Part shown: positions 4,465 through 41,000 of the stretch, in pieces
Numbering within the stretch: the first letter of the stretch is position 1
How the letters are laid out: each line of letters starts with the position of its first letter
Assembly: GCA_903813345.2 (NCBI GenBank)
Contig: CAIIXF020000005.1
Location: forward strand, 30,135,375-30,199,374
Length of the DNA: 64,000 bases
Reading direction: 5' to 3'
Origin: Owenia fusiformis
Lineage: Eukaryota; Annelida; Polychaeta; Sabellida; Oweniidae
Notes under the pieces: model-generated
The model's database searches: none
Told to the model about the DNA's origin: nothing
The model's input: the letters and a program-made list of their open reading frames with translations, nothing else
Made by a program: the position numbers and the translations under genes

Positions 4465-7400
4465 GAAGCAGAAAATGCAATACAGGGCATGAGTGGTGCA
4501 TGGATCGGAACCAGACCTATTCGCACAAATTGGGCCACCCGGAAACCCCCTGCACCCACCACTAAAGAAAATACAAGTGAGTACCTGTTGAAATTATTGA
4601 TAATTCATTTTTTTTATCTTGAATTTCATGATCAATCTTTGAGTTTGAGACTATATGCAGGCCCGTAGCCAGGATTTGCCAAGGGGGGTTCACTTTTTGG
4701 AAAATTCGAGGGGGGGTTCACTTTTGACAATATGGGTCCAAAAAGGGCCAAAATCACTAAAAAAAGTGCTCAGAATGGTGAAAAACTGCATGATTTTGAA
4801 AGAATTTTTGGCCAGGGGGGGTTCGCCCGAACCATGCGAACCCCCCCTGGCTACGGGCCTGATATGTATATTCTATATGAGACTATATGTACATAGATTT
4901 ACAGTAGAACATGTTATTGCAAACACCTTTTTGAAGTGAAAAGTTATAGGTTTTCAATCGCACATCTTAGAAACTACATTTTAACACCTTTATCATTAAA
5001 ATTTAAAAAATTAAAATGAAAACCTCCTGATGTGAAAACTACTCTGGATTAAACTTTTAAAGTTTTACTGCACTTTCTAATTTGCCATTTGGTTTTGTTT
5101 TGATATTTGAATATGTTTTTGACGAGATACTTTTGACTGGAAATACTGCTAGCGAACAACCTTATCAAACAAACCCAAGCTTTGTAGCATTTTCTCAAAT
5201 GAAACAATACATCTAGAATAACGTTAATGTCATATATTTTGAAAATTTTCAAATAATATGTATGATTGTACTTTATATCTTGTTATACCAGCATTTTTTG
5301 TATTAATAATAATGTTTTTTTTGTTACAGATGGAAACGTCACTTCATCATTCATCGTGAATTAATTGTAGCTTTTTACACTGAATTATATATTTTATCAC
5401 CCAAAAGTATTGCAAAATGTTTATTTTTTACCATCATGATTAATTCAGTGCACTCAAATACTTCCATTTATTTTTAATATCACTTGCAAATTCAAACTTT
5501 TATCTACTTTAACAGATACCAAGCAATGAAGCTGTCACTTTCATGGAACAGTTCATCAATTGGTACTTCATATATTTATGATCCCGTTAAGTGTTCCTTT
5601 ATGTTACTAACTTTCTAGGGACCTGAAAAATTCACTATATCCTTTTGTAGTACTATGAAAATTCTCATGTGACCAATTTTCAACAAAAAGTTATCGACGC
5701 TGATTTTTGAAGAGCATTCCATTTTTCATTATCTTCAGTTTATTGTTACTACAATTTACTATTACATGAAATATTTATGTGGAAATTAACTTTCATTAAT
5801 GTCACAAATGTAATTTAGGTGGTGAAATGAGAGATTGGTTGTCATTAACAAGATATAATCGTCGCTTTTTCAAAATATTATAACAATCATAAATTTTTCT
5901 CAGAATGGCAAGTTTATAGAATAGTTTTCTACTTAGCACCGTTGAAAAAAATATGGATGGCTTTGAAATGTGACATTCCTAGACTTTTAGTTCTTACAGT
6001 TATACGGCAAAATCTATCAGTTCAAATGTGGCAGAATATCGTTAGATTTATGTCATGGAAGATTGGTAGACTTTTCACAATAATAAAGTTTAGAACTTGC
6101 TCTGAGAAAATATGACCACTCTAATTATAAGTACTGCAATCAATTCATTTATGCATGCTTGCTTCAATTTTAGGAATTTCAGGTGATTTGCAGTTCATTT
6201 ACCAGTGATGGCCAGACAGATTTGATGATTCCAGGGAATTCACCAATTTTATTTAATTTATTCCCTCCGTACTGAGATCAGAGAATGTCTAATGTACTTG
6301 TAGTAATGCTTTGTATGCCCATCCTTGTTTATTGTTTATGTTGACTATTTGAATCATATCAATAACCATATTTATTTCAGTTAACCCAAAGGTGAATATT
6401 TCAGCTATATGCTATGTTTCAGATACTAAACCTCTAACATATGATGAAGTGTATAGCCAAACTAGCCCCAGTAACCACACTGTGTATGTGGGGGGCATTA
6501 CAAATGGCCTAGAAGGTAGAACATGGACACTGAGTTGGCTCAGTCACCACCGTACTGTGTTGTGTCACATATAACCCAATACATTGAGCCTCATAGCATT
6601 TCTAGGGGATTTCTTTATTATTCTTTCTGGATCGTATTTTGGGATGTCCAATAAAATAGATATTTCATTATCTTGGGGTGGATATGTACGATTTTGCTAT
6701 AAAAGTTAGAATCCCTGTTGTTAAAATTCATTAAACATGCAACAACATGGGTTCTTTTTTTGAGGCCCATCTTGCTGTATGGACATAGTAGTTCTGTAAT
6801 ACGTTGAGACCCACTGGTTGTAAAAAATTTGAAAATATTCCCTTGAATATACAGGGTGTTCCATAATAAATCTTGATCATGAGATTAAAGAAGTGCTATG
6901 ATTAACAATGGCCGTAGGGTTGTATTGTCTATTTTTATATTTCTATAGCTATTATAGCTACATTTAGCAGACTGATGTCTTGTATCTTGCATATATTTGT
7001 GTATTATGTTACTTAATTATATTATCGATGTATTCTTTTGATTTTATATTTGCTAGTGGCTTGTTACGGTGGTTTTATAAATATAACCCAATTTGAAACG
7101 AGGTCATGTGGGGTTTATTTCATAAAGTTATCCATGGACAATGGATATCGATTTTTTAAGTTCTACATCTTTCACATTGTCACAGGAGCACAATCCTGAA
7201 AGATGACAGAATTTAACTGATTATATTTAAAGATTTTTTCCGACAAATGGCACCCCAGTATCTTGGGTATGGACAGTTCTAGTTCAGTTCATGTTGGGTT
7301 ATGTTTTAACCATAGTTATATGATTGCAGTCAAAGCCCTAGATTATCAAGAAGTATATGAGCAGACCAGTGAAAGCAACCATACAGTGTATGTAGGTGGC

Positions 7401-10400
7401 CTAGGAGCCGGCCTCTCAGGTGTGTACTCATACACAAGCCAAACCACAGCCTTAAAACAGCCATCCTTGTGTACAGAAAATAGTCCCTGGATTGCGTATA
7501 AGTGTTTTGAAATTATCAGGTCCCCCTCCCTCCTATTTGAGTGATGTGATTGGTGTGTATTAACGTCCACAGTATATGCACCATTTCTGGAGCCCGGAAT
7601 GCATCCTTGTTTGTGATTGGTTGTTTATATTAGTGTCTGAACCTTGCGTGAACTAACTGTAACTGGTTGCGATTTGCCATGCGTGGTATGAGCTCCCCAT
7701 TGGTCCGTGTATGTACTAACCCACACTTCAGACACGTCCCATCCATCATGGTTAGGTTATACACATCCTACACACATGTTAACCAAAGGTGTATGTTTAA
7801 ATGCTTTACAGACCAAAAACCATTAGAATTTGAAGAAGTTATGAAGCAAAGTAGTGCGAGTAATTGTACTGTCTATGTAGGGGGCATTATAAACGGCCTG
7901 ACAGGTACAGTGGTATAAGAGGCATCACTGCAAGAGTTCTCGATGGTCTCGTACAAACATGGCCACCCCGTTACATTAACTGCATGTTGTAGAATAGGGG
8001 TCTATATCATCATGGTGACAGATTTCATAACTCCAGGTGCCCATGTCTCCCATTAGTCCATACATATGTGTGGTTTTCAATCCTCATCTTGCTACAAATT
8101 TCTCATTCATTTTCTGCTTAAAAATATATTTCATATTTCATCATAATATTTGAATAGACAGAATATTAACAAAATAATACATACTAACCAGTTCCTAGAT
8201 TATTCTAAAACTTAGGATAGTAGCGTTCTCTTGTAGCAATATTAGAAAGTCTGTACATTAGTGCATTATTATCTCCTTTCAAATCTGACTAACCTATGCA
8301 TTAATATGCAAAACCGCACAAATATCTCATAAGGTCACATGATACTAATTACTACCAATAGGTGGCATGTCTGTGCGAGGAATCGAGAACTTTTGAAAAT
8401 AATGCCCATTGTTGTCGGCCATTTTAATTCTACATCGGGTCCCCTGGTGGCGGATTTCTGCACTTATCTACACTTTCTTCTAAGAGGCTTACTTGGGGGT
8501 TTTTGAATTCCCCTGAGGAGCCCATGAATTCTACTTTCATAGACATGTATAACAAGTTAATTGCTTGTCGTTAACCCTACAGTTTTAGACGTGGAAATGA
8601 ATTGAAGCTGGCTTCCATTTTGTCACAGTTGTGGCAATTTGCTGCATATTCTTCAAGATGTTATATACACACAAGGCATGTTTGCATGTACATGCTCGCT
8701 ACAAGAACACATACACACACAGAAGTTCATTCACTGCCACACATTGATGCTTTTAATGCATGTATGTGTAGCTTATTTATACAAAAAACGCAAAGAGATT
8801 TGTGAGAGGACAGAGATTACGCACTGGTGTCCTAAGACTCCTTGCTTATGAACTTGGAAATCAAATAGAAGGGTTTATCATTTTCTGTATTCAACCTACA
8901 TTTTGGCAGATTTAAACTTGTTTTGTTTATTTCAATGTAGATAGCGCTTAGTGTGATATATGTTGTAACTTTTTGGGATATCTGATTTTGAGAAAATACA
9001 AGACCACAATATAGCAATTTTTGTGTGCTATTAACTGCGTAATGTTTAACTGGGGTACAGTCTGTTGAACCTAAAATTCTCCTATTTTATTCAATATAGT
9101 CTACAGACCTATTTCCTGCTTCCATACTGGTATATTCTTCAGAAAAGGGCGTATAGTATTTCAAAAATGAATTTTCAAAAATACTAGCATGCTAATAATA
9201 GTGACAGTTCTTTTACCATGGGCCCATACTTGAACTCAGAGATAATTCATTTTTCATCCCAGGATAATGAACATTTTCAGAAAGTTTACCCAAGAGTAAC
9301 TCATTTTTTGCCTTCATTATTACTGGATGCTTGTTTATAATAGGATTGGATCTATAGGTCATAGAGGTCTTGATATAATTATTTAATAACAAGTCAACTT
9401 TTCTCTATAGAATTAAATTGGATTCTATGCATGCAAGAGGTCATGAGGAAAACATGATTAAAATTCCTGCTATAATGGATCATTGTTCTTCGTGAAGGAC
9501 AATGGGGATTGGATCATCGGGGAAATCACTACATTATAAATAAATTGCATCATATTGTCTCTTGGTAACTTTGAAACTTGCACTGAATTGATCCCGCTGC
9601 ATGCTATCAAACATTACACTCAAAGTGGTCGATCTTTCCTGAAATAATTCACGTGAAAATAACAAATACACAAGGAGAGTTTGATTTCAATATGGATATT
9701 TGATTGATGTTTGAAATTGTCCTAAAATACAAGAATATAATTCAATTCTCTTTAAATGTTTGAGAGGAACATAAAAAATGACCTGCATTTGTACAGTACA
9801 TTTCAGAATTTATTTTCCTTTTATGATTTATTATCACATAAATGTTTTATTTACCCTCCGATTAAATATCTTGCACCTAATACGGAATCACTCCAATAAA
9901 ATAATTATTTCCTCAAACATGATGGTCTGATTTCGTTTTCTTTATTCAACTTGAATTAATATACACCAGCACAGTAGTTTGTCAGACCGTCTTATAAATC
10001 AGGAATTTATATACCTTTTACTCAGCCCCAGGGAGATGAATTTATCAAGATTTAGCTTTTTTTATAATCACAAATTGCGTTTAAAGCTTAAGAATAAATG
10101 CATGTACGACTCCCAGAGCGGCCCACTCAGAGGTAATCTTCATTTTAATAAGTTGAAAGATTGCAATGAGCAACCCCGCTGACTCTGTGTCTCTGGAATC
10201 TCTCATGTATCCGCAGAAGAGCTGTAAACAACATATTCCCTCGCAATATCACACTCATGATCGATCAGCTGCTGAATGTTTTTTCAAAATGTTTGAACAT
10301 TTTCGATAAACTACTTTAACCAAATGCAAAATGTTGAGTTAAGATGCAAATAAACTTATGACACCCTGAATTACATGATTTAGTTGAGACATTTTTTATG

Positions 10401-13400
10401 AATTTGTTTTTGTTGTTGTCATAACTTAACATCATGAAAGTAAGTTATGATGCCTTAATTGCTTCTTCTAATGAAATATTCTAAGTAGAACCATAATACA
10501 TCTAAAACATGTCTATTAACTTAAAGTAAAAACAACTAGTCCCTTTTTGAAAATACTAATACATTACCCCTTTTCCATAGAAAGAGAAAAAAACAAAATG
10601 TATCATATAATTTTTTGAGAATAATTTTAATTATCATTATTATTTTTTTTATTGAGTGTCTAACTTCATAATGGGATTGATATGTTAATCACTCTGGGGG
10701 CCAGATAACTTGGAACAATTATTTGATTAATCCAACATATGTTTAGTATTCTACGAGCTTGATCTTAATGTGTTAAAATTCTATTCACTGGTACCTTTTC
10801 GGTCACAAGTGGCTGGCTAAACAATAAATTCATTAGTTTTTGAGCCCTGATGGAATTGTATTGACATTGTTCATTAATTTGGAGCATTATAACTGGATTA
10901 GTGGCCAACCCAGGTCCCACATGTTAAACACTGCATTGAATGTAATGTTCATCAATTCGATCAATTTAATCCATGACCAGTATTAACTATGGCTTATTTC
11001 TGTATGAAAACCCCGTCAATTCAACCACTCTCCCCTTTCTGTAAACCAGGAATCAAGAGCTGGATTTTCATGTATTTACGACACAGTGTAGAATGTAGAC
11101 TTTGTGTCTGCAAAATTTATTCCAAAATTGATTCCATTCATTTTTACTTTGAACCTAATACGTGCAATTAACAATGTGTGCATCGGCACTTTATAACGAG
11201 CATTGACCCCTGGGATACTATAACGACTCCATTGGAACTGATCACCAAGGACATATTAATACAGTTTTATAATCATATGACAAAAACTAATGAACAAACT
11301 GGTGAACACAATGGCATAATCATATTGAGGAAACAATACAAATACAAAATTAATATCCTCACTGGGAGTCATTTTTTAGTATGTTTTGTAAAGCTGACAT
11401 AATCTTGATGCCAAGTTTCCCATTGAAGTCAATGGAGATTTGGGCTTATTTTTGGAGGAAATGAAGTTATAAGTTGAAGTCAACTTTGCATCACTTGGTC
11501 AATAAGGGAGTTGCTATAGCTGATAAATAGATGTCACCTCTTGTTTTTTTTTGTTTTTGTTGGGGCGGACTGCCATAGGCTTCAGTGTTAAAAACTTGCA
11601 ATAGTTACTTAATTTTATGATCTATCAAAAAATGTTAGAAAAAATGGAGAATAAGTAAGATTTCAAAGTTATATAGAAACTCCTCTATTGAAAGACATGA
11701 CTTACACAACATATACAACAGATTTCTATACACACTTTTCTGGTTTTTGTACACCTTTTATATTATATTATATTTGAGAGGTTTTCTTTATACATATATA
11801 TGGCTTGGTGTGGTGTTTTTATTATATTTTTGATATTTCTATTTTATAACTTATTTTTATTATTTAATATATTATGTAACTTTTTAATGATTATGACCTC
11901 CCCAGTGTGTAATTAACTATAACGTTCTCATTAGTGTGACCATTTTGACTCTTGATAGTAATCAATTCTGATTAATGATCCTCATGATTAGTGGATTAAC
12001 AATATATATTTAATAACTACCTGGCAAAATCGTCACGATTTTCATGCTTTTATATAAAAGTAAAAATAGTAAAAGTCTCAAAATTGAGAATTCAGAAATA
12101 CTCAATGGATTATGCTCATATTTTTGATCTATAAAAAATGAATAAGTTAATAGGAAATTTTAGGTGGAATTGAGAACTTTTTTGAGTATCGTGATGATTT
12201 GTCAGGAAATGTTTTTAATAAGACCCAACAATGAATAAACAATGCATTATCACTAGCTTTATGAAGATCAAAGCAATAAGTAATGTGATCTTAATGAATT
12301 ATTGTGAAACCTTAATGTGTACTATTGTTTTATTAATGAAGTATCTTCTATCTTTGCAGAGGAATTAATTCAAAAAACATTTGGAGTATATGGAAATATA
12401 CAAGAGATTCGAGTATTCAAAGACAAGGGTTATGCATTTGTTAGGTATGTTGATCAAGTATTTCTCGAAGTATAGCTTTACTATTTGTATGTCTGACTAA
12501 TCAACTGAAGAGCACCATTGTATTTTAATTAGTCCTGCGTCATGCCCCTCGACCGATCCCCCTATTCTTTGTTGTGGTGGGGGAAGGGATGTTATAGAGT
12601 CTTGATACAAGGCTCATTTGAATTTGACAAATATTTTTCCATGTATCAATCTTACTTGGATATTACAGTCCAATGCACAGCATAAAGAAACCATGGCCTA
12701 TGGGAAATTCAGGGAATTTAAATTAATGGAGCATTAGCCATAGCTTCAGGCATTTCTTAAAGCTGTGTATAAAACTGATTATGAGTATTACAATGCAAAC
12801 CTAATTTTCTGTTCTTGATTATTCATCACAAATTACAGTTGATTGAGCCTAACACACACAACATTAAAAACAATGGTATATTCTTTTATGTACCACTTTT
12901 ATGTACCATACTAGCATTTCCCATAAACCACTCCCATTATTATAGCATTGGAACATATCCATGTCTGTTTTTTATTATCATCATTATTAATTCTTTGTGT
13001 AATGTAATGTTTGGATTACAAATGCATGTTCCCGATGCGAATGAATTTCTTATTTCAGGACAATCATTTGTTTTTTTTGTCTAGAAATATCTGAATTGTT
13101 GGATCTTTCATTTTAGGTTTTCCAATAAAGAATCAGCGTGCAATGCTATAGTAACAGTACATGGTACAGAGATCAAGGGCCAAGCGGTGAAATGCTCATG
13201 GGGGAAAGAGTCTAATGAAAGTAATGCACCAGGAGGTGGCGAGGTAAGGAAATATTGCTATCAAGCATTGTTGGCCAGGGCTCGCAAAAGATGGCGCTGA
13301 GATATTCTAATTATCTGCAATTGGTTAATTGACAATTATTCCATTTGAAAAAGATACATGGGGTTCAATATGAATCTTTTTGCAAAAATTGGTGTCTCTG

Positions 13401-16400
13401 ATATTCTACTTTGCAAGTATATCATGTTTCCCATTGACCCTCACGTTATAAGATCTATTCATTGAAAGCCTTTAGTGTATCCCAACAGTGTTTATGATTT
13501 AGTTGTACATGTGTAAATCCATATTACCTTCAGAACCAATTCCAACAAGCCCAGGGTCAAGCTTCATACTCAAGCGGGCCTGGCTTTGGTAATTACCAAA
13601 TGAGTGGTCAGATGGGATATCCATCATGGTACCAGCAACAAGGGGGCTACCAACAGGGAGGCTATGGAACTCAAATGGGAGCCGCACAAATGGGAGCGGC
13701 TGCAGGGCAGTATGGCCAATATGGCTATCCTTACAAGTGAGATATTTATTTTTTGATGTACTTGCATTAGCTTAGATTTACTTTGAAAAGTTTAAAGGCA
13801 TATTATTTCCAGATATTTTGTATCAATACACATGTATGTAATTTACTAATTTTGGGAAATTTTACTTTAAATGGCTTTTAGGCATGCTCTACTTGTCTCT
13901 TGGTCTTGGTATGTCTTTTTTATTTCAATAGATATCATTTGGAAATAAACATACCTATATGATTTATAGTATGGCTGGTATGCAAGGGGCAGGTCCCAAC
14001 TATGGGGGGCAGATGGCTATGCAGCAACAACAGGCACCACAACAGTATAATGGTCAGCAGCAGCAGCAAGGAATGATGGGATACCCAGTGCAGCAAGGTG
14101 CGTCATCACTCAAGTGTCATGGCAACGTCACATGATACAACACAACTCAAAGTTTGAATCTTAAATTTTGTCAAACGTGTGAAGGAATAAAATTATATCT
14201 GAAATTTTAAAAGTTAATTCGTAAATGAGAAAGATTCAAACTATTCTCTGAGATGTAACTGCCATGTGACGTTGCACTATTTTATTTATTTCTCCAGTAG
14301 CTTTCTGTCTAGCTTAGTTTGAGTCAGCGTTACCATGGTGACAGAACCATGGCGACGCCTTCTGATTTATCAGCTATCGTGTATAAGGCATCACTTTGGT
14401 TATGCTCAACCCTAGAAATAGAATCATGTAAATACATTGTTTACACTTAGATTATATGGAAATAAAAAATAGGAGGGAGTATTATTATTATTAAACATCT
14501 TCGAGGAAATCACAAGTTAAAAGGCATGACCAGAGTGAGGCTGTATACATGAGCTGTGCATGCTTGCTGTCACATTTTTTTTATTAGAATTTTGTCACAT
14601 TTCTTGTGTCACGTTTGTTTTAGACTTGAGAATGGATCACATAGATGAAAAATAATCTAAATCAGTGTTCAAGTTCAAGTTTTAATGTTTACGTAATTTT
14701 CGATAAATCTTCTATTTTTGAGGTTATTTTGAAGACTCTCGGAAAATCACTTATGGCCCTGACATATGGAACAACAGGTGATGCTATTTCATCAGATGGT
14801 TTACTCCTGTTACTTTTAATGCACTCTTAATCCATGGGATCCATTATACATAGGTTCTTCTATCAATGTTTTATCTATCAATTATTTACCACCTTTGTTT
14901 CATAGATATACTCTTTAATATGGCTGTGCGTGCTGGAATATCTTGTTTCATGAATTTTTGAAAGTATTTATACATGTACATTTTTACAAGTTATTTATTC
15001 AATCATGTACATTTTTACAAGTAATTTATTCAGTCATGTACATTTTTACAAGTAATTTATTCAATCATGTACATTTTTACAAGTAATTTATTCAGTCATG
15101 TACATTTTTGCAAGTAATTTATTCAGTCATATACATTTTTAAAATTATTTATTCAGTTGGTTTAATATCAAGAATAATGACGCAGGATGTTTCAAGCACG
15201 GAAAATCGAAATTTTCTTCCTGACATGAGTACTGTGGTAAAACACTATAGTAAGAACACTATAACAGTTCACAAATGTAATAGGTGTTGGTTTGCAGTTA
15301 TAACCAGACATATCATATTAACATGTTGAATATAGTATACCAAATTAGGCCATATTTTACACAGTTTCAAGAACTGCTCAGATCAATAGCCTGAAGTCTC
15401 ATTATATGCACAAAGTGATCTTGTTGATTTTCTGGGAAATTATTGTACTATTAAAGGGGGAGGGGGTGTTTCTAGGTTTCTGTTGTCTATTTTGAATAAC
15501 CTGTTTGAAAGAAATTATCAAACACCACAGTTTGAAGTGTAAGGTCTAGATCAACTATAGGTTTTTACATTATCCTGGGTGAAAACAAAAAAAATTATTT
15601 TGAATTCTTAACAAATTGAACATAATAATTACATGCAATTCAAATTGTTGCAAATATCTTAAAACTTACCAGAAAATCTTTTTACTTACTCTGTGTATAC
15701 AATGATATATCAAAGGCTGGAGCTGGGTCACAAGTAAGTAAAAAATAAACAGATCAACAGAAACACTCCTTTCAAAAACATCAAACGAAATGGTCATGTC
15801 ATGTACATGTACATGAATTGTTTTATCTTTTGAAATATTGGAAGAATGGCTTCAACTTTGTTTCTGGATGCTGAAGTGTTTTGAAAGCCTTGATCTTAAA
15901 TTCTATTCAAAATGACGTCTCTTTTGATGTTTATGAAAGGTTCATTTGAGACTCGTTACTTTCACCTATTTTCTGTAATGTTGTATTGTATACAGGTGAA
16001 AGGAATGGGTCAATACCAAGAGTCATAAAAGCGAAACAATATCAAACTCAAATCAAAGAATTCTCAAATTGAAAATCAATGAATAACATTATCAGGTGGT
16101 GTTTTACACACAAAAGCACATTAAAAAAACTGGGATATTGTAGCATACAAGCACTTCTAGGTCAGACAAACAAATTATGTACATATTAATATGTTACATG
16201 AAGACACACAAACATACCCCGCATGGTTCAGTTCTTATGCATTGTATTAAACATTACATAATAAATAATCAAGAAGATGTCTATATTTTCAGGCAAATAG
16301 GTAAACACTTCTTTATTCCAATTTCCTTTATTATTCGTCATTGATCCATATTTTAATCCATATTTTAGTATTTTCTAGTGCTAATAGAAAACCATCCTTT

Positions 16401-17936
16401 TGTAATGGGAAATATAATAGAATAATAAAGTAGCTTTGAATTGGCATATTTGTTAGAGATGTTTTTAATAAACCATTTGACACCATATTTCTCTTCGTAC
16501 TATTATAATTGCTTATGATCGTGGTCACATTTTGCTTGTAAAAATATTAACACTGTATTTCGTTTTTTTTTCGGTACAGGTCTGTATTCAGTACTCATAC
16601 CCATATAGGTATGTTGTTTTCTTAAACATCATTTTTATTATTACATTTTTATTCTACATTTTTACACATTTTTATTATCTTTTTCTCTTATTCACAGGCT
16701 GTAAGGTAAACGGCCCTAAGGTTTTGTTGTTATTCGTGGAGGACACAAATACTCAAACTTGTATGAGTAGGAATGAGAAGTACTCAACATTGAGTAGAAA
16801 GAACAAATTGCATATCCAGCTTTGTCTCGGTTGTTTATTAATGAACTTGAAAAACTGAAATATTCTGTGTCAAAAAATACTTTCCAAATAAATCATTGTT
16901 TTGAAGGCATTTTCCAAATATGAATACTTCTCCAAACTTCAAAACTTGAACTTATTCAGACACTTTAAACATAGTTCATGTGATGTATCAATTTACATGT
17001 ACTAAATACAACATGACATCATTTATATTTTCATATCTTTGAATTGAGTTGATTCTGTTGAATCTATATGAAATTAGAAGCTTGTTCGATTCCCAATAGA
17101 TGCTATATGAAAGTGAATTGTAAGTACTGAACAGTAGCGATTGGTGAGTAAGCGTGAAGTGTGAAACGACAAGTGATTATTACATGAAGGCGGGAGATCA
17201 TATGTTAATATAAGATACTGATAGCTTAGCTCTGTGTAATAACATCCACACTACAGGGCTACATATGTCAAGTCTAAGCGCAGATGCAGCCTATCACAGA
17301 GCCTTATGCATCAGTCACATTTGATCTACAGCAACCGAACAGCAGCCCTAGGTTCCCAAAATCAAGAGAAATATGCAGTATAAATATATAGGGATAAGCA
17401 GTACAATGTAGATTCTCTATATCGATTTTGTGAAGCTACGGCTGCTGTATGGCCGCCATAGAGCAAACGTGACTGAGGCTTTAGCAGCCTTCTTGTCCAG
17501 GACTCTTTGATATGGTGTAAAGAAGATGAGGGCAAGCTATGTAGCTCTGTGGTTGTAGGGTGTGTGAAGATATGACATATTGTAGATAGTAGAATAGACA
17601 GCTAACATTTAAGTCCTATTAGATATATCACTTAACATGATGTAGTTAATATTGAAAGCAGATATCTGAGAGAACAATAATGTGTTGCAATATAAAAGCA
17701 GAGATAAGAGTTTCTAAATCATCTGAAGGTTTTTTAATGAGAATCATTTCGACTCTTAATCCATCATTGCTTAGATATATATAATATAATGACGGTATAT
17801 TGTGTTAGTTCATCAGTAATCATTTATTTATACATGTAATAAGCTTAGGTAGTGTTCTGTGTTTGCAAAATACAAAAAATCATTTTTTTCATGTTTATTA
17901 ATGTTTGCTTTTTCATTTGCAGATGATTACCAATAA
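4465..17936 (+). CDS. TIA1: TIA1/TIAL1-type RNA-binding protein, 3' part of the gene
   Basis: Coding exons are 4465-4576, one of three alternatives (6423-6515, 7330-7419, 7812-7904), 12360-12444, 13117-13243, 13534-13736, 13970-14097 and 17923-17936 with TAA. All have AG/GT borders and matching phases. The first exon is the end of RRM2 with the TIA-family signature [13 protein letters not shown]. The alternatives start RRM3. The next two complete RRM3, with RNP1-like DKGYAFVRF and the VKCSWGKES end. Two further exons form a Q/G/Y/M-rich tail like the prion-like domain of TIA1, and the protein ends DDYQ. Family members bind U-rich RNA, promote use of weak 5' splice sites, repress translation and nucleate stress granules. 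Vertebrate TIA1 and TIAL1 cannot be separated here; one pre-duplication orthologue is likely. The join of the last two exons is the least certain step. Confidence 0.93.
4658..4861. mobile_element. MITE with CAGGCCCGTAGCCAGG termini
   Basis: This 204-bp element begins CAGGCCCGTAGCCAGG and ends CCTGGCTACGGGCCTG. It is flanked by a direct repeat ATATG (4653-4657 and 4862-4866), consistent with a 5-bp target-site duplication. It is G-rich inside (runs of GGGGGG) and non-coding. It lies in the TIA1 intron 80 bp after an exon. I do not assign a superfamily. Confidence 0.88.
6423..6515 (+). CDS. TIA1: TIA1 alternative exon A (linker + RRM3 strand 1)
   Basis: This 93-nt exon lies between ...ATGTTTCAG and GTAGAAC, in phase 1-1. 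After the shared first base it reads [20 protein letters not shown] and then [10 protein letters not shown], closely matching the [20 protein letters not shown] segment of vertebrate TIA1. HTVYVGGI is the RNP2 strand of RRM3. It joins in frame to 4576 upstream and 12360 downstream. It is the first of three paralogous exons. Confidence 0.9.
7330..7419 (+). CDS. TIA1: TIA1 alternative exon B (linker + RRM3 strand 1)
   Basis: This 90-nt exon lies between ...ATGATTGCAG and GTGTGTAC, again in phase 1-1. It encodes [19 protein letters not shown] and then [10 protein letters not shown]. It is one codon shorter than copies A and C. The RNP2 HTVYVGGL differs at its last residue, and the loop after it is GAG rather than TNG or ING. 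Of the three it is the most diverged from the canonical TIA1 sequence. The open frame and intact splice sites argue against a dead copy. Confidence 0.88.
7812..7904 (+). CDS. TIA1: TIA1 alternative exon C (linker + RRM3 strand 1)
   Basis: This 93-nt exon lies between ...ATGCTTTACAG and GTACAGTGG, in phase 1-1. It encodes [20 protein letters not shown] and then [10 protein letters not shown]. The SNCTVY and GLT residues match vertebrate TIA1 best, so this copy may be the ancestral or default form. It lies 392 nt downstream of exon B, too far for simple steric exclusion between splice sites. Confidence 0.9.
7905..12359 (+). other. Long TIA1 intron after the alternative exons
   Basis: This is about 4.5 kb of AT-rich intron between alternative exon C and the RRM3 core exon at 12360. 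I looked for a fourth copy of the alternative exon (motifs like YDEV and TVYVGG) and saw none. No coding sequence, structured RNA or clear transposon was recognised. Confidence 0.6.
12360..13243 (+). CDS. TIA1: TIA1 RRM3 core exons
   Basis: Two exons (12360-12444 and 13117-13243) encode the rest of RRM3. The first reads [20 protein letters not shown] followed by KDKGYAFV. The second starts with the shared Arg and reads [20 protein letters not shown], then [22 protein letters not shown] is the RNP1 strand and is split by the 672-nt intron. The acceptor base A at 12360 completes the Glu codon for all three alternative upstream exons. Vertebrate TIA1 has the same elements (EIRVF.DKGYSFVRF, VVKCYWGKE). 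Confidence 0.93.
13534..14097 (+). CDS. TIA1: TIA1 low-complexity (prion-like) tail exons
   Basis: Exons 13534-13736 and 13970-14097 encode a tail rich in Gln, Gly, Tyr, Met and Ala, such as [14 protein letters not shown] and [14 protein letters not shown]. Vertebrate TIA1 has a Q/N/Y/G-rich C-terminus that drives phase separation into stress granules, and this tail has the same position and composition. The second exon ends at a GTGCGTCA donor. If that donor is not used, translation runs 11 more codons to a TGA at about 14131, a possible alternative end. Confidence 0.85.
14098..17922 (+). other. Last TIA1 intron, with a 31-bp tandem repeat
   Basis: This intron of about 3.8 kb carries a tandem array of a 31-bp unit (TCATGTACATTTTTACAAGT followed by AATTTATTCAG) in about six copies at 14971-15156, and a perfect X-box palindrome at 14329-14342. 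Acceptor-like CAG sites at 16579 and 16697 do not open a convincing coding exon. Confidence 0.6.
14971..15156. repeat. 31-bp tandem repeat, about six copies
   Basis: The unit contains CATGTACATTTTTACAAGT. Inner copies differ by single bases; the outer copies are more diverged. The array is intronic. Confidence 0.9.
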
Positions 17937-29000: not shown

Positions 29001-32000
29001 ACATCTACATAAGATTTTACCTTTCAAAGCAAGCTCATATTTGCTGCATTCTCCATCTATCTTGGTCATGAGATCTGTAATTGTAGTATTCTTGGTCTTG
29101 ATTCGTTCTTCTTTCTTCGCTAGCAGTCTCTCCAGATCAGCTAGTTGTTTTTTGACAGAATTGTGCTCTTCTTCTAACTCTTTGTATTTGCCACTATTAC
29201 TCTCAGCCTCTAGCTGTTGAAATATAATACACATAAGTAAGTGATATGTCCCCTTTATAGAAGGAAGTCGTTAATATGGCCAACTGTTTCAAAGAAAGAA
29301 TTCAGATATTTGAAATAACAGTACATGTAGTTTCTTAATGTTCCATATCTAGAGTACAATTTTTACAGATTTGAGTACAATTGAATAGTGGTACTGGGTG
29401 TTACAGATTTGAGTATAATTGAAAAGTGGTACTGGGTGTGACAGATTTGAGTACAATTGAATAGTGGTACTGGGTGTGACAGATTTGAGTACGATTGAAT
29501 AGTGGTACTGGGTGTCACAGATTTGAGTATAATTGAAAAGTGGTACTGGGTGTGACAGATTTGAGTATAATTGAAAAGTGGTACTGGGTGTGACAGATTT
29601 GAGTACAATTGAATATAGTGGTACTGGCTGTGACAGATTTGAGTACGATTGAATAGTGGTACTGGGTGTCAGAGGTTTGAGTACAATTGAATAGTGGTAC
29701 TGGGTGTAGAATTCAGATATAGAATTCTACAATTTTTAGTTTGTGTCAGTATAAAAGAAGGCTCTAGAGAAGATCTCCTAAAAAACTTGTAAATACAGAA
29801 ACATCTACAATGTTCTATTTCACGGTTGTAAGCAGAAATCATGTGCATTTCTATATAAGTAGATTTAGGTGCCATCAATGCTTGAAATGACATAATGCAT
29901 GGTACAGACATGTACAGATAGCATCTCAATGATCTCCCCAGGATTTTATCTCAAGTGGGTGCAAATTCTAAATCTCACGATTTAAACCAAATTTGGTCAA
30001 AATATGGCTTATTTTCATGATTTTTCTAATTTTTAAGTGGGTCCAACCCTGTTTTTAAAATCACAGAAGGGTGCTGCGCTCACTTGCTTTAATGCTGGGG
30101 AGATCACTGCACCTACATATACCTTGGATGAGCTGATAGTCTCTTTGAGTTGTGTATTTCTCTCATCTAATGAGCGTTTAGCTTTCTCAGATTCACTTAA
30201 TTTATCTTCAAGTTCATTCAGCTGTTTGTGCTGCTCTTCTAGCTTCTGTGAGGCTTCCTGAAGCTGGCCTCTGAGGTTAGATTCTCTCTCTTGTGTCTAC
30301 ACAACAACACACAGCATTGGTTAGTTGTAATAACAAGCTATACGAGGGGTGATCAATAAGTAATGGACACTTTTTTACGCGGTCAGGTCTGATGCAAAAC
30401 ATTCATGTAAATAGGTGTCCATTAATTATTGATCACCCCTCATACGTTAGTTGTAAAGAGTATAAGGAACAACACAAAAAGAACCCTACTGATGGAACTG
30501 TCATGAAAATTCTCAAGTTTAAAGAAACAAAGTATGGAAAACTAGAATGGGTTGAAAGAAAGCGTGAAGTGACAAGACACTACGTATACTACTCTACCTT
30601 ATCAACTTGTTCCTGTAGTAAGGTGGTTTCATTTTTCAGCAGACTGATCTGTTTGTTATAGGCATCAATAGAGCTTTCTCTGGTGTCAAGGTCATGTGAC
30701 AGGTCATCAAGGTACTTCTGTTTCTCTGCTAGAGCACTGGACATTTCTTTGGTGCGGTTAGTTTCTTCAGCAATCTTTGACTCTAATTCTCTAACCTTCA
30801 CCTTTTAGGGAAATAAAGTGAATGTTGTGATTTACAAATACCACCTAGCAGCAGATTCAATCAATCAATTATACTGCTGTCCTACAATAACTTTCTGGAA
30901 ATCAGTGAATACTAAGATAGAATAAAAGATATAAGGAACTTTAAATTAGATACACATGCATTGATTTCATTCAGACACGGCACCCTATCACCCTGTATTT
31001 ATTACACATCATGTTGATAATTCTATATTTAAGAAAATGGAGATTAAACCTTTAGATTAATACCTGGTAATGACCACTTTAGCCCAAAATTGTGTTTTGT
31101 TTTATTAAGCAGTGAAATAATATACTATTGTGAATCAACACTTCTAGGATAGTTTACCTTAAGAGTCTCAATTTCATGGCTGCTGTCTTCAACTACAGCT
31201 TTCTCTGCATCTTGTTTGGTCTTCACAACTTCTTCAAGATCAACTATCTTTGCATCCCTTTTAGCCAAGACACTATCCTTGGACTTTAAGCCATCTTTAA
31301 GTTTCTGTATGGTCTCATCACGGTTTGTCAATTCTAGTTGTACGGATTTAATAGCAGATTCCAAGTCTGTAATCTTGACTTGTTTATCTTCTATAGTCGT
31401 CTGGAGTTCTTGTAGTTTATTGTTTTTAAGACTCAAGTCAGTTTCCAATGTATTCTCTAATTCAATCGCATTTGTTTCCTTTTTATTGAGTTCATCTTTA
31501 AGCGCTTTACATTTCACAACAAAGTCAGCAATTTGTTGATTAAGGGAGTTTTCAGATTCTTTTAATGTTGATATTTGGGATTCAAGATTGGCAAGACTTG
31601 TTTTGTAGTCTTCGGAGTTCTTCTCAATATTGTTCAAAGCTTCTAGTTTTAACTGAGACTGCATTTCAAGATCACTTTCTAGTTGATTTATTTTAGATTT
31701 AAGTTCTTTCTCTTTCACTTTACATTGTGAAAGTTCAGTAATGCGATTCTGTTCCGAATCCCTGGCATCATTTAGTTCATTTGTTAGACTGGTCAATTTT
31801 GCACTTTTGTCTTTAAGCTCATTAGTTTTCTGAGCATATTCCTCTAAAGTTGATTTTAATTGTTCATTAACGACTGCAATCTTTGATTCAAGTTCATTAA
31901 CTTTTTCTTTTGTATCATTCTCACTTGATGCCAGGTCTTTTTTTAATTCACTGTCAGCATCATTCAGTTTATTCAAGTCAGTTTCCAACTGTACATTTTG

Positions 32001-35000
32001 TTTCTCGAGTCTCCTACATTTATCACTTAGATTGTCAAGGATGTCTTCAAGTTGGGTGACCTTCTCTGCAGCAGTGTCAGCTTTCTCTTGGGCAGTTTTA
32101 AGTTCTGTTTGAAGAGACTTAACATTCACTTCAAATTTACTAGCTTTGTCCTCGACTTCTTCCTTATACTGAACCTCGGTATGAAGTTTATGTTCTAGGT
32201 CCCCAATTGTAACATTGAGCTCCTCAACCAGGGATAAGTTTTCATTCGCCATTTCTAGAGACATTTCTAGTCCATTTACTTTGGAATGAAGTTCATCGAT
32301 TGTATTACAATATCGGTGTTTCTCAATTTTTTCTTTTTCTAGTTCATCTCTGAGCTGATCTAGTTCATATTTCAGACTGTCATCAAGTTTATTTGATGTG
32401 GTACCATTGTTAGATAAATCCTCAAGCTGGGTAATCCTGTTCTCCAATCTCTTAACATTATTCCTACATTCTTTGTGGAGTTTCTGCTCATTCTGAAGCT
32501 CAGATTCAATATTCTGAAGCTTTGTTTCCATTTCCTCTGCAGCATTTGCAGCCTCTTCAGTAACACTAGATAGTTTCAATTCAAGTTCCTTCATTGTATC
32601 TGCATTATGTGTAGCAGTTTCAGACTGTTGGGTCTCTGCTTTGTTTGTTTCAGCCTCTAGTTCTTTGATCCTGGCCTGCAGTTCTTGGACTTGACTATCC
32701 CTGTCAACCATTAACTCCTGCACTCTGAATGCCTCAGTTTCCAAGACAGACATGTTGGACTTTGCATCACTATAAGCTGCCAGCTCTTGTTGATATTGCT
32801 GCTTCAGTTCAGCAAGTTGAGTCTCCAATGCAGCAATGGACTGCTCTTTCTTGCCTATCACAATTTCCAAATTGCTCTCACCGATTTTCTTCTTTGTGAT
32901 CTCTTCATTAGCTTCATCGAGGTCATGAGATAGGACTTTCACAGTTTGCTCAAGTGATTCAGTCTTTTCCTTCATGGCACTTAATTCATCTTTAAGATCT
33001 TGACTGGTATCAGTGTATCTCCTTGCTTTCTCCTCTGTATGTTTGAGCTTCTCCTGAGTTTGGTCCCTCTCCTTCTCTACCTCTCCAAGCTTTGCCTCCA
33101 ACTCCTCTTTGCCAGCCTTCATAGCTTCACATTTTTCTTCCAACTGCACATAGTCTTTATATTGATCCTGAAGGGAGGTTTCTGTTTGTTCCAGACTGTC
33201 TTTTAGTTCCTTAACAGATGTTTGCATCTCAGATAATTTCATTTCAAGTTCCTTTTGGGCTTTTTCTTTCATTGACAGTTCAGATTTCAGATCAGATATT
33301 TCTGAATTGTTTTTAACGAGAGTTTCTCCATTTTCACTAGCCATCTCGAGGGATGTTTCTAAACCAGCTATCTTGGCTGGAAAAAGAAAATATTTACATA
33401 CAGTTTCTCGGTAGATAGTTGGAAGAGAAATGTATCATTGGATTTGCCTTGAACATTAACTGCTCAATTAATGTCTCCAGCAGCACACTGATCAATGCCA
33501 ACATTTTTATTCAAATTCAACATCACCTATTTTGCCAAGCCTAAGCCAAAGTAATTAGGCAAGTTCATGTCACATGCTCACTTTTTCCAAGTCTCGTTTC
33601 AAAACTCTAACATTTTGATTTTTCATGGTTTAAACTGTATATGAACCACCAGATCATCACTTCTGTCTTAAATCAAAGATCGTTAAACAAGTTTCATTAA
33701 AGCTGTAGTTAACTATGAATCACTTTACTAAAGAAATATACCTTGAAGTTGTGAGATTGTTCCATCTCTGTCCTTTAGACTGGCTTTTAGGCTCTCAATG
33801 TCTGTGGTACCTAGCAACAAAGCAAAGAGTTTATACTTTATGTACTGTTTATAAAAAGAGAAATATTAGTATTTAGTACATTCAATGAAACAATTTCAGA
33901 TACTCGTGGTACATAAGTCAAAATTATTTAATTAGAGGAAAACAAGACTGACTTTAACTTGAAATAATTTGAACATCCTATGATTTTCACGGACTGCAAT
34001 TTTTGCTTTCTTATTCCAAAATTATGCTGAAAGTATAAGTACCTTGTGTAATCTGTTGTTCCAGCTGTGTACTATATGCCTTTGCCTCTAGAAGACTCGC
34101 TCTTTCCTTTACTAGTTCAGCCTCAACATTCTCAACTTCCTAAAATTCATATACATTTAAATTTTTCTAAATATAATTCAATTTCTCCATTTCCAGACAA
34201 TAAAAGGTTACAATACAAATTCAGTGTTCCTTTGCAGGTCATGGGCTTATAACGGAAAATGCTCTTATTCATTGTAGAACTAATTTTACCTGTTTCACAT
34301 CAGAATGTGTCATGAATTTACTGTTCTTCAAATCCATTATTAAGATCATAAAATTTCTAATTAAATGAGTCTGAATGATTTACAGTGAAAGAGATGTCCA
34401 AATGAAATATAAGATTACCTTATATTTTTGTTCTAAACTTGAGTCGAGTTCAGCGATCTTTGCATCTTTCTCCGTGACTTCCACTTGTAGATTTTCAAGT
34501 TTTTGGTTAGCTTGTGAAATAGTGCTGGTTAGGTCAGATAGATGGCTCTGTTGAACAGTGCCCTCTTTTGATAGTGCGTCTGTTAGAAAAGAAAAATAAA
34601 TAGATAAGTAATTATTCTAAACCATGCAGAAGCTTACAATAAATATAAATAAAATACACAAAGGCTCTTATTCTAATTCGAATCTTCTGTGCTTTATATA
34701 CCAGGTCGTTCAATAAGTTCTCATAATTTTGCTCTCATTTTAAGAGTTTTTTATATTTTTCCATGAAAATTTCACAGACGATGCAGAATGTATCTGTGTA
34801 ACAACTCTGCAAAGATTATGTATTAATTCTAATGGTTGTGGAAATGGCGGTTGCTATAGTAACGTCAAAAATCGGTAGGCGGGGCAACTTTATTTGATCG
34901 TAAAATCCATGGATGTAGTTAGATTTCATCTTGAAATGTCATATGTTTTATCTGAAAGATTTGCAACCATAGAAACAGGTTTTGACATCAGTGTGAAAGA

Positions 35001-38000
35001 TGCAACTTTTCTGAGTATAGTTATTACTGTGACATCACATAAAAAGGTATGACATCACAGAAAAGGTTTCAATAGAGAGACCCAAGATGGCAGCTGACTG
35101 TGGTCTTGTGAAAAGTCAAGATGAAATTCAAATTCAAATCCGTAGTGTGATAAGATTTTGTGTGTTATCCAAGAAATCAAGAGGAGAAACAATAAAAGCA
35201 GTTCAAGATATTTATGGAAAGGAGTTAATGAGCACACCTACCATATACCAATGGTATCAAAGGTTTGGTTCAGAGGGAAGAAAATCTGTGATGGATGAAA
35301 AACGGACTGGCAGACCGGTAAAAGTCACCAACCCAAAGGCTGTTGAAAGAGTTAAGACAGTTCTAGATGATGATCGCCGCATCTCTGTACGGGAACTTAG
35401 TGAGAATGTGAACATTAGTATAGGTAGAACACACTTCATTCTGAAAGAGAAGCTTAAAATGAACCTCATGTGTGCTAAATGGGTGCCAAAGGAGTTAACT
35501 AGTGACCAGAGAGCCCGCAGAGTTGAGGTTTCCCAAGAATTTCTAAGACGATACCAAGATGAAGGGGATAGTTTTCTTCAACGAATTATCACATGCGACG
35601 AGGTGTACGTCAGCTATTATGAGCCCCTTGGGAAGAGAGCATCAAGTGGTTGGAGAACTAAGAACTCACCTACTCCCATTTCAACCCTGGCAAAACTGAC
35701 CAAAAATGACGGCAAGGTGATGTTCATTGTGTTTTTGGATAGCTCTGGGGTGCTGCTTACGCATGCAATTCCTGATGGTCAGAGAATAAACAAGGACTAT
35801 TATGCAATGGTAAGCTTATTCATTATTAATAAATTAATCAATATAAGAGTAAAAACATTAAATCAAATCAAATTTAAAATCAGATTTGAACTATAAAAAT
35901 GGTTAAGTACAAATGTTAAAGGCATTAGTATCCTATCCTACTGACTATTTCAGGTTCTCAAGAGGCATCTCAAACGGGCCTTCTCAAAGAAACGCCCCCT
36001 CCTAGAGTTGGCGACAAGAATATTTCATCAGGATAATGCCCCGTGTCACCGGGCAGAACTTGTACTGAACACCATAGGAGAACTCGGAATGGAAGTTCTC
36101 CCACAGGCACCATATTCACCTGATGAAGCCCCTTGCGACTTTGGCGTGTTTGGCCGAATGAAAGATGAGCTGAGAGGTTTTCGATTTGCATCGACAGAAG
36201 ATTTGCAGAATGCAGTCCAAAATGCTCTCAGAGCTAGATTTCCTGATGGATTCCATAAAATCTTCCAGGATTGGGTAGAACGTCATCGAAAGTGTGTCGC
36301 ATCCAATGGACATTATTTTGAGCATTTAAAGTAGGAATAGAAACATTTACCCCATACTATTTCATGGGATAAATGGGACTACATGACATTAAAAGACTTG
36401 TTACTCTCCACAATGTTGAACTGAATTATATGCCACTATGACGTCAAATAATCTGCCCCGCCTACCCATTTTTCATGTTACTATAACAACCGCCATTTTC
36501 ACGACCATTAGAATTAAAACTTAATTTTTGCAGGGTTGTTACACAGATACATTCTGCATCGTCTGTGAAATTTTCATGGAAAAATATAAAAAACTCTTAA
36601 AATGAGAGCAAAATTATGAGAACTTATTGAACGACCTGGTATTATCACTACCTTCATGCAAAACAGAGAAAATATTTTTAATAAAAATATATATATTTCA
36701 ATCTTAAATATATATAAAATTCCAATAAATATTAATCTGCTTGGCAAAAAGTCCATAAAACGCATATAAAATCAGAAATAAAATCTTTAAAACTCCAAAT
36801 GGCTATCGTCAGTGTCTTTACTTAAAAGCTTTAGCAAGTGAACGACGTTTGATTCGTCCCCTAGTGTTATAAGGTCTACTTGATGTGCCAGTTTTAGGTT
36901 TTACATTTGAGTCGGGGCACTCCACTATTTTCCTTTTTTTAGTCGTTGTTACAATGGCTCTTCCTGGAGATTCAGGTGAAATTCTCCGTTGACGTTTTTG
37001 TCCATTAATTTTTACTTGTAAAGTCGATGCCTGGCTCATGCGTAACATGCTCGCTTTTGTTTGTCTGACGCCTGTTTCTTTAGAATGACTCTCAACCGGT
37101 CTTTTACCCAGGGGTTTACCCCTGTTCGAATTGATGTTTTTCTTCAGAGATATTATTCGCCTTTGTTGTGTATTGGAGAGGGACATGTTGCTAGGTTGCA
37201 ACACTTTGTTAGGGGTAGATTCTTTGTTTGGGGTAGAAGTAGATGGCAGGGTACTGACATTTACAGTGACATCACAAGTCAAGGAAGATACATCCTTTAA
37301 GTTATCATAATGTTTTTCAGTTTGTGGTATGATGGACGTTTCCAAACGGAATTTGAAGACATCTTTGGGGCTCAATAGGGGACTAGGCTTTGAGGTGCCA
37401 AAATTGAAGACAGGTTGTTTTGGGGTACCTGGTTGGGGAGAGTCACAAAACTGTAGACCCGGAATATTGAAGTCTTTAAGTAAAAGGCTCAATCTTGGTG
37501 GTGTCTTTATGCATTGATCTGCATATACTTGACCACTTGGCACCAGAGCATATTCTGGTAAATCATCCAGTATATTTGGTAAGTTATGTGCTCCACTTTG
37601 TAAGTTCTCTATATCAGTTTCCCTAACACTATCATTGTGTATCACATCAGGGCCACTTTGGAATACATCAGGGCTAGAGGTTGATAGGTTAAGCTGTACA
37701 ACTGGTGGAAGTGATATAACCGAGACCTGCTTTGATATTGACTGTTGTTTTAAACCAACTAGTTCTGGTGTCTGTTCTGAACTAGATAGCCTCGAGTAGA
37801 GAGCGGATGCCATTCCAGAATCACTAGACTGAGATATTGGCCTTGATTGTCCATCAGATGACTGAGATATTGGCCTTGATTCTCCATCAGATGATTGAGA
37901 TATTGGCCTTGATCGTCCATCAGATGATTGAGATATTACCTTTGATTGTCCATCAGGTGACTGAGATATTGGTCTTGATTGTCCTTCAGATGACAGATTT

Positions 38001-41000
38001 ATTGGCCTTGATTGTCCATCAGATGACTGAGATATTGAATTTGATTGTCCTTCAGATGACAGATTTATTGGCCTTGATTGTCCATCAGATGACTGAGATA
38101 TTGAATTTGATTGTCCATCAGGTGACAGACATATTTGTCCATCAGATGACTGAGATATTGGCCTTGATTGTCCATCAAATGCCAAAGACACTGGCTTTGA
38201 TTGTTCAGATGAATCAGATACCTCCCTTGATTGTCCAAATGATGAAGACACTGTTTTTGTCTGTCCACTACTTGAATGCTTTGAAACTTGAGAAACTATC
38301 TCACATTGTTCAGATGGTTTAGGAGTAGACTGAAATACAGAGCTAGTCTGTCTCATGGCGTCATTCTTAGTTTTTCGTGACTTAGATATACGATTAAACA
38401 GATCAATTGAATCCTTGACTGTAGATTTGTTTTCAATCTTATGTATGATCTGTTCTGTAGATGCCTGTTCTGCATCCTTGAGCTGGATAATTGGCCTACC
38501 TTTACTCTCAGCTAACTGTTGTTCTAGAGTTCCTATCTGAGTGTCCTTCTGGCTGATCTTCTCATGCGCCTCTTCAACTCCAGCTCTCAGTTCTTCTACT
38601 AACTTTTGGAGCTCAGTCAGTGCGCTAGCCTAAAGTACAAGACAGATAGGATATCTAATCAAATTCGAAGTTTTTTGATCAATAACTCTTAAAAACACAT
38701 AAATAACACTTATATCATTTATTTCTTTGTTTAACTTACTGATTAGAACCTAAAGAAAAACTATGTAATGGCTTTTGAGCCAGTAAACGGGAAAATATTG
38801 TGACAGATTCTGTCCACGCTCTGCAAACACGGAATCCTAGGGGCAGTGATATAGACATGTGTCTTAGCCATGATAACGCCCAGTGAGATCTGGTTAGTGC
38901 CCATGATAGTAAACAATATCACAACTTATGACAAATTATATACACAAATATGTTTGGAAAATGAAGTATTATTACATTATTATGAATATACACAAGTTTA
39001 ACTGGCTATCTTGCTTATTACACTAGTTTTTCCCAAAATTAATAAAGAACAATGACCCTCATGCATACTTCATGAGTAGTGAACTCACCTGTTCCTCTAT
39101 GGACTTCTCACCCTCAGCTATAACAGTTTGTAGTTTTGAGATCTCAGATTCCTTTTGTTGGAAGGTCTCCCCAGCTTCATTCAGAGTCTCCTGTAGTTCT
39201 GCATTCTCAGTAATCTATGGCGAAAGAAAACTTTATTGTAAATTCATAAGATTGAATGTAGGACTCACTAGATTAAATTTTGAGATAGTTGAACTATGGT
39301 GAAAATGTAGTGCTCATAACTGTATGTGGAAATAAGTACTAATAAATGGGACACTTAAATAGTTTGTTCCACGTGTTTTGCAAATGCATAAATAACAAGT
39401 CATTAACATGCAAAATGTCACCACCTGCCATTTGTGGCGTTGACATAAAAAACAATGGAAACGACAAGGCTAACAGACTGAGATGAGATGCAATAATATA
39501 TCTACTTACTTGAGCTTGAAGTTGTTCCTTGGCTTCAGTAAGTTCTCTAGTCAAGTTCTTTATCAGCTCATTGTTAGAGATCTGACTTTCATCTTCCTGT
39601 TGATTGCCTCTGCTCTGCTAAACACAAGGGATTTAAACAGTTTTAAAGCATTAACATGTCCACTTGGTAGGTTACTGCAAATGGTTACAAATATGGAACA
39701 ATTTATTTTAGACATCAAATGCCAGTAACAAACAAGGCATTAACATGCAAAAAGTCACCACCTGTCATTTGTTACAGATGCCATTTCTTAAAGACACTGA
39801 CCGCTTTATGCTTAACAGGGATTGAATTTAATAAGACAATATGAAAAAAATCAATATTATCAAAATTCAATTGCTATAGAGACTAACAATGTACAACAAA
39901 ACTGCCTATTTGAGTAGTTTACGTAAATGGCATCAACAATCGAGAAAACAGCTCACAAAATGATCATCTGGTCGTGTCATACTGTCCAAACAACGACAAT
40001 ACAAATTTCTACTTGGAAAAGCTATAACTGTTCTTGAGTATAAAAACATTAAAGTACAGGGTGACCGGAAAAAAAGGAGACCATTGAAATAGGCAATATC
40101 TCCTAAAATAGACTAGTGACATCAATGAAATTTTGCATACATCAGGACAGTTCTATGGAAATTTGTTCCTGAAAGTGTCAATACAAGCAGTCAACTGGTT
40201 CAGGAGCTATGATCATTTACATAACATGCTCCAAATAGGCGCAATTGAGACCAACGCAGAGCTGGATACATTTGGCAAATACCCTTACATATTCCGACCT
40301 TGTTATGGCATTACATTTAGCATTTATTGCCACCTTTAGGTCAGCAATTGTCTCAGGATTGTTTTGGTACACATTGTCTTTCAAATTGCCCCACAAAAAG
40401 AAATCAGGTGGATTCAAATTTGAGGTGTATGAAGACGAAGCTTATCTGACCTATGGCTTCTGACTCAGTGGTCCCACTCAGTTACAGTATCATCCTAAGG
40501 AGGTTTTGGGCAGCCCTTGGTTTCCATATGGGATTTAATTGTGCCATATAGTGGTTTTAGTAACATGGCACTATGCCCAATACCTAAAGTGACTCTTAAG
40601 ATTGGGTAAATCAGCACTTTGGCAACAGGATGATGAACCACATGTCAGATAACCCTTCATTGCCATTACAGCCTAGACTTGAATCCTGCTGATTTCTTTT
40701 TGTATGGATATTTGAAAGACAATCTATACCAAAACAATCCTCAGACTATTGTTGACCTAAAGAAGGCAATCACTGCTATATGTAATGCCATAATAATGCC
40801 ATAGAGGGCAGAACATGTAAGGGTAGTTTGCCATATGAATCCAACTCTGCGTTGGTCTCAATTGTGCCTATTTGGAGCATGTTATGTAAATGATCATAGC
40901 TCCTGAACCAGTTGAATGCTTGTATTGAAACCTTCAGTAACAAATTTCCATATAACTGTTCCAGTGTATGCAAAATTTCATTGATGGCACTTGTCTAGTT

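Follow-up and report, generated by a model that had tools for sequence, protein, structure and literature searches.

A 64-kilobase stretch of Owenia fusiformis DNA (contig CAIIXF020000005.1, positions 30,135,375 to 30,199,374 of the forward strand; hereafter the window, with positions counted from its first nucleotide) carries on its plus strand the 3' portion of a gene of the TIA1/TIAR family, comprising the end of RRM2, a slot of three exons, the remainder of RRM3 and the C-terminus. The three exons, designated A, B and C, probably constitute a cluster of tandem duplicated, alternatively used exons from which one member at a time is most likely included in the mRNA. The gene would then produce TIA1 in three versions, with the differences confined to about 31 residues in the N-terminal part of RRM3. 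Splicing of all three copies is expected under this reading, as are an exclusive choice among them and regulation of that choice by cell type or stage.

An earlier sequence-only reading had described A, B and C as paralogous exons of 93, 90 and 93 nucleotides (nt) with a common phase of 1-1 and intact GT-AG borders. The coordinates, lengths, phases and splice dinucleotides were all confirmed. As had been proposed, each exon also joined in frame to the same neighbours, the upstream exon 4465-4576 and the downstream exon 12360-12444; an open TIA1 protein resulted in every case. The three single-copy products matched RRM2-3 of human TIA1 (PDB 2mjn) with E values of 3e-56 (A), 5.6e-52 (B) and 7e-56 (C), and their RRM_1 domain scores were 64.4, 64.6 and 63.6 bits, respectively. 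Amino acid identity among the exons was 20/30 for A and B, 20/31 for A and C, and 16/30 for B and C. Identity to human TIA1 was 21/31, 16/30 and 19/31 for A, B and C, respectively, and identity of C to TIAR was 20/31. A profile built from A, B, C and human TIA1/TIAR, which tests for further copies and not for the three themselves, was run against all six frames of the window. Exons A, C and B scored 74.3, 72.4 and 65.3 bits, and the next best match scored 7.9 bits, within the range of the best scores from each of 20 hexamer-block shuffles (5.0-8.6 bits). Thus, this six-frame search found no fourth copy in the window.

Tandem placement alone would speak for an assembly artefact or collapsed haplotypes that created a false duplication. 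This explanation is in effect refuted by divergence, as the copies differ at 31-34 of 90-93 aligned nt; moreover, the best local matches between the introns are short (14-40 nt). We regard its probability as negligible. Nucleotide differences at first, second and third codon positions numbered 9/7/18 for A and B, 7/9/15 for A and C, and 10/8/14 for B and C. The pairwise nonsynonymous divergence (dN) was 0.31-0.34, compared to a synonymous divergence (dS) of 1.34-2.88, values of dS that are rough because the comparison has only about 20 synonymous sites. The first base of the first codon in this comparison comes from the upstream exon. In neutral simulations with an equal number of changes, protein identity was as high as observed in 0 of 20000 runs for A and B, in 1 of 20000 for A and C, and in 166 of 20000 for B and C. 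A stop codon arose in 12126 to 13900 of 20000 neutral runs, while exons A, B and C contain none. As dS is near saturation while dN is only about 0.3, and given the outcome of the neutral simulations, we conclude from these sequence comparisons that all three copies are old and have long been maintained as protein-coding sequence.

Homology to RRM3 of yeast Pub1 indicates that the alternative exon encodes an N-terminal helix (alpha0), a linker, strand beta1 with RNP2 and the start of the beta1-alpha1 loop. Helix alpha0 is a family-specific N-terminal helix, residues 326-333 of Pub1, and the available text of PMC3169606 calls its role in RRM3 unclear. The ungapped alignment offset of PDB 2la4 places alpha0 on query residues 41-48, assuming that the chain of 2la4 ends at residue 414; the corresponding segment in the exon C version is PLEFEEVM. 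The RNP2 core is nearly invariant (VYVGGI, VYVGGL and VYVGGI in A, B and C), with its tyrosine kept. The buried helix positions also remain hydrophobic, the residues in A/B/C being Y/Y/F at Pub1 core position 329, V/V/V at 332 and Y/Y/M at 333. Variation among the copies falls mostly in the other positions of the helix, in the linker and in the beta1-alpha1 loop, which reads TNGLE, GAGLS and INGLT, respectively. The earlier description of the exons as swapping strand 1 of RRM3 therefore identified the right place, since beta1 is encoded there; the main variation is in helix, linker and loop, and the RNP2 core hardly differs. With the RNP2 tyrosine present in all three versions and hydrophobic residues at the buried helix positions, the isoforms would be expected to retain the RRM3 fold and its RNA contact. 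Any functional difference among the three versions may instead concern domain packing, protein partners or stability, and not the basic RNA sequence preference.

The products of other exon combinations argue for the use of one copy at a time. The sequence-only reading had expected any two copies to keep the frame and duplicate a beta-strand. Joining A and B kept the frame and doubled the helix as well as the strand, and the product contained a single RRM with the duplicated piece ahead of it. Skipping A, B and C removed the start of the RRM: the domain score fell to 55.5 bits from about 64 bits, and the match covered profile positions 9-69 instead of 1-69, i.e. the first eight positions were gone. 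As skipping and double inclusion both look harmful, one-of-three use is the natural reading of the cluster.

The upstream flanks of the three exons share a branch-point-like word, TTAACC, that begins 42, 24 and 33 nt ahead of exons A, B and C, respectively, which is branch-point distance. This word was not present in the gene's other six acceptor flanks (-50 to -13). Any shared hexamer was found in 937 of 50000 random intron triples but in none of the 20 triples formed from the remaining acceptors, and a shared hexamer holding a branch-like word in 126 of 14035; these frequencies apply to a word that was noticed first and tested afterwards. The likeness of A and C extends to TTAACC(C)AAAGGTG, which is absent elsewhere in the window on both strands. 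Overall, the upstream flanks of A and C share 22 aligned nt, a match equalled by 8 of 3907 control pairs, compared to 163 of 3907 for A and B and 249 of 3907 for B and C. No similarity was detected among the downstream flanks, where at least 798 of 3907 control pairs were as good. The shared word and its extension in A and C lend modest support to a retained or constrained 3' splice-site architecture.

Several observations weigh against exclusive choice of a single exon. In all eight combinations tried, from none to all three copies, the reading frame stayed open across the RRM3 exons and was not shifted. Exclusion based on frame or on nonsense-mediated decay was consequently rejected. A frame guard is common in mutually exclusive tandem exons but is not required. 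The introns between the copies are 814 and 392 nt long, far above the limit of about 50 nt between 5' splice site and branch point (PMC7969005, available text), and steric exclusion by short introns was rejected as well. Distant branch points as in OGDH are unlikely, with an AG 16-25 nt upstream of each exon. Six tests for docking/selector pairing, carried out on this one sequence, were not significant, with scores at least as high in 1, 4, 5, 20, 34 and 55 of 60 shuffles. Pairing of this type is a feature of only some mutually exclusive clusters. Donor hairpins of the three exons, those of A and B with 6-pair stems, were not unusual, with z values of -0.43, -0.02 and 0.38; the donor at 12444 gave a z of -2.29. 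In addition, TTAACC may be merely a retained or common branch point. Finally, constraint is weakest for the B and C pair, and the donor of exon A is weak (5 of 9 U1 consensus matches, matrix score 5.0 bits).

The open frame of every combination, together with the lack of an enforcing feature among those just listed, would suit loosely regulated cassette exons. Under this alternative the copies are used alternatively but not exclusively, and transcripts with two copies or none are frequent; they are tolerated because every copy is a multiple of three in the same phase. A protein lacking all copies has a truncated RRM, and one with two copies carries a second helix and strand; the long conservation of three near-equivalent copies also seems to fit one-of-three use better. 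We therefore consider loose cassette use unlikely, although it is the alternative to which we assign the most probability. The weak donor of A bears on a different alternative, in which one exon does nearly all of the work and the remaining copies persist as remnants that are seldom spliced. The donor of C is middling (6/9, 6.4 bits) and that of B is better (7/9, 10.2 bits), an inequality that such a view would accommodate, as it would the neutral runs that reached the identity of B and C. All three copies are nevertheless open and GT-AG bordered, with dN far below dS at near-saturated divergence, and we consider this explanation improbable.

Mutual exclusion as originally proposed thus stands as plausible on the basis of the protein products, while no sequence feature that enforces it was found. 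Because neither frame nor spacing can enforce it, exclusion, if real, has to depend on competition between splice sites and on regulatory proteins. It would probably be imposed at the choice of 3' splice site, where similar weak branch and pyrimidine units may compete with one another with the involvement of regulatory proteins.

RNA structure was also considered as a control element. A predicted 14-pair stem upstream of exon B ends on the branch word of that exon, with a z of -3.48 (200 shuffles) or -4.55 (40 shuffles). Among 107 background windows, 1 had a z of -4.55 or below and 4 had a z of -3.5 or below, and the stem was picked after looking. When the A-B intron was folded, nucleotides 7292-7305 paired with 7070-7105 with a mean probability of 0.91, and pairing with the alternative partner 6560-6590 had a probability of 0.00. 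Helices of at least 14 pairs occurred in 9 of 211 windows, and a pattern of one 9-mer present twice plus its complement occurred in 43 of 308 overlapping windows. As helices of this length are not rare in the AT-rich window, we give little weight to the exon B stem as a possible control element. A stem after exon C (7919-7967/8361-8407) was rejected; its z was -4.21, and -4.07 when repeated, with 6 of 58 background windows as extreme. Rfam gave no match in the window.

A more elaborate model, which we put forward as speculative and rather doubtful, is a regulated three-way alpha0 switch. The isoforms would share the RNA-contact core and differ in helix surfaces and loops, and they could adjust nuclear export, the coupling of RRM2 to RRM3 or the behaviour in stress granules according to tissue or stress. 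In this model exon B might be held back by the stem that touches its branch site, for which a segment at about 6571-6579, just after exon A, would be a competing partner.

The suggestion that TIA proteins act on this exon choice themselves was not supported at A, B or C, as there is no U-rich stretch after any of the three donors. The fraction of T at +7 to +46 was 0.28, 0.12 and 0.28 after the donors of A, B and C, compared to an intron median of 0.35, and the longest T run in the 100 nt after these donors was 3, 4 and 2, respectively. Other donors of the gene are followed by richer sequence, with T fractions of 0.53 (4576), 0.45 (12444) and 0.55 (13736). TIA proteins are already known to regulate how their own mRNAs are spliced (PMC2964331, available text).

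The features of the gene are collected in Table 1. Exon A has three tandem in-frame acceptors in all (exon starts 6381, 6405 and 6423). Judging from the open frame, use of the upstream acceptors could add 14 or 6 linker residues to the exon A isoform. If the TTAACC at 6381 serves as the branch site, the first of these acceptors would be unusable. What appears to be a small transposon lies in the intron before exon A (4658-4861); this short element has perfect 16-nt terminal inverted repeats (CAGGCCCGTAGCCAGG) and was the source of the strongest duplex in a 34-nt scan of 4577-12359. The window yielded only the last piece of TIA1 RRM2 (4465-4557, E 1.6e-13; next match E 0.26), and RRM1 was not searched for; RRM1 and the start of RRM2 probably lie beyond the left edge. 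Downstream, the WGK that follows RRM3 agrees with the TRRM hallmark W-G-[RK] given in PMC3169606 (available text), and two exons that by eye are Q/G/Y-rich correspond to the Q/N-rich C-terminal domain. Retention of the 233-nt intron after 13736 would lead immediately to a TGA (13737-13739), so that the Q-rich domain would end YPYK; a shorter C-terminus produced in this way is possible.

Table 1. Exons and candidate splicing elements of the TIA1/TIAR-family gene, by position in the window
Feature	Position	Strand	Remarks
Upstream exon, taken as constitutive	4465-4576	+	RRM2 end plus beginning of the RRM2-RRM3 linker; 3' border in phase 1; AG/GT borders; matches the end of human TIA1 RRM2
Sequence preceding exon A, with two additional acceptors in frame	6381-6422	+	Start at 6381 or 6405 adds 14 or 6 amino acids; frame open throughout
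TTAACC upstream of A, branch-point-like	6381-6386	+	Extends to TTAACCCAAAGGTG; putative function
Alternative exon A	6423-6515	+	93 nt, phase 1-1; alpha0 helix, linker, beta1/RNP2 (HTVYVGGI), beta1-alpha1 loop
Predicted 14-pair stem upstream of exon B	7079-7092 (5' arm), 7293-7306 (3' arm)	+	Ends on branch word of B
TTAACC upstream of B, branch-point-like	7306-7311	+	Putative function
Alternative exon B	7330-7419	+	90 nt, phase 1-1 (HTVYVGGL); one codon fewer, gap near its start
TTAACC upstream of C, branch-point-like	7779-7784	+	Extends to TTAACCAAAGGTG; putative function
Alternative exon C	7812-7904	+	93 nt, phase 1-1 (CTVYVGGI)
Downstream exon, taken as constitutive	12360-12444	+	From after beta1 to RNP1 (DKGYAFVR)
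Exon with end of RRM3 and TRRM hallmark WGK	13117-13243	+	Reads SWGKES
Q/G/Y-rich C-terminal domain exon	13534-13736	+	
Q-rich C-terminal domain exon	13970-14097	+	
Last coding piece as modelled	17923-17935	+	Ends DDYQ, stop; modelled from splice signals only

Other genes and repeats were noted elsewhere in the window. A kinesin gene appears to occupy about 23789-48791 on the minus strand, where four tested open reading frames (ORFs) matched the Pfam kinesin motor; the best PDB match of ORF 48060-48377 was KIF20A (E 4.1e-25). Long ORFs of this region such as 31125-33434 look like coiled coil, with matches below the Pfam cut-offs. A coding minisatellite at 37827-38237 (33-base-pair (bp) unit, 12.8 copies) lies within a minus-strand ORF of 603 amino acids (36818-38629). 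Among the kinesin ORFs, and probably intronic, is a Mariner/Tc1-like transposase on the plus strand (35033-36334) that looks broken: ORF 35033-35896 contains HTH_48 and Transposase_1, and ORF 35945-36334, which has no Pfam match, reads like its continuation. Pieces of a PBDC1 gene were found on the plus strand at 52377-52610 and 57616-57852 (Pfam PF04669, E 6.4e-13 and 4e-07). The presence of introns and of genes for TIA1, a KIF20-like kinesin and PBDC1 points to an animal genome. Tandem arrays are present at 949-1045 (16-bp unit), 14973-15157 (31 bp), 29365-29707 (38 bp) and 55222-55770 (about 147 bp).

TIA1 and TIAR play central parts in splicing and in stress granules. A gene with three natural versions of the alpha0 helix offers a ready-made variant set for asking what this helix does. 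Among the matches listed from the open-licence PMC literature, no title or abstract start reported tandem RRM3 exons in a TIA gene. According to the available text of PMC8836218, human TIA1 consists of 13 exons, of which 9-11 encode RRM3. Its two major isoforms are distinguished by exon 5, which encodes 11 amino acids at the start of RRM2. That case resembles the present one in being a splice variant within the RRM region of the same gene family, but it is a single cassette exon in RRM2 and not a tandem set in RRM3. In insect multi-exon clusters such as Dscam, one of several tandem paralogous exons is chosen by docking and selector RNA pairing. Such sites are mentioned in the available text of PMC5224494; unlike in those clusters, no significant docking/selector arrangement was detected at the TIA1 exons. 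OGDH exons 4a and 4b are also an ancient duplication, in their case used exclusively, and TIA-1/TIAR act on that pair; their exclusion depends on distant branch points (PMC7969005, available text), whereas the AG nearest the TIA1 exons is only 16-25 nt away. Tandem mutually exclusive exons are well known in general, and the TIA gene would be a new place for them. The sequence-only reading had considered a splicing regulator that diversifies its own RNA-binding domain to be notable. The exon triplet that it described is real, and a splicing factor that varies its own domain in this way has a precedent in vertebrate U2AF1 (U2AF35). According to the available text of PMC5224494, exons Ab and 3 of this splicing factor gene are tandem duplicates, and the choice between them changes a portion of the factor's RRM-like domain (UHM), RNP2 included; the duplication is old and has been kept through vertebrate evolution. 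The U2AF1 exons are two in number and 67 nt long, and inclusion of both or neither leads to stop codons and nonsense-mediated decay, whereas the three TIA1 exons of 90-93 nt stay in frame and have no such guard. The protein family and region also differ, as alpha0 and beta1 of RRM3 are affected here. With U2AF1 as a close functional precedent, the TIA gene would be another splicing factor gene in which tandem exons vary the encoded RRM-type domain.

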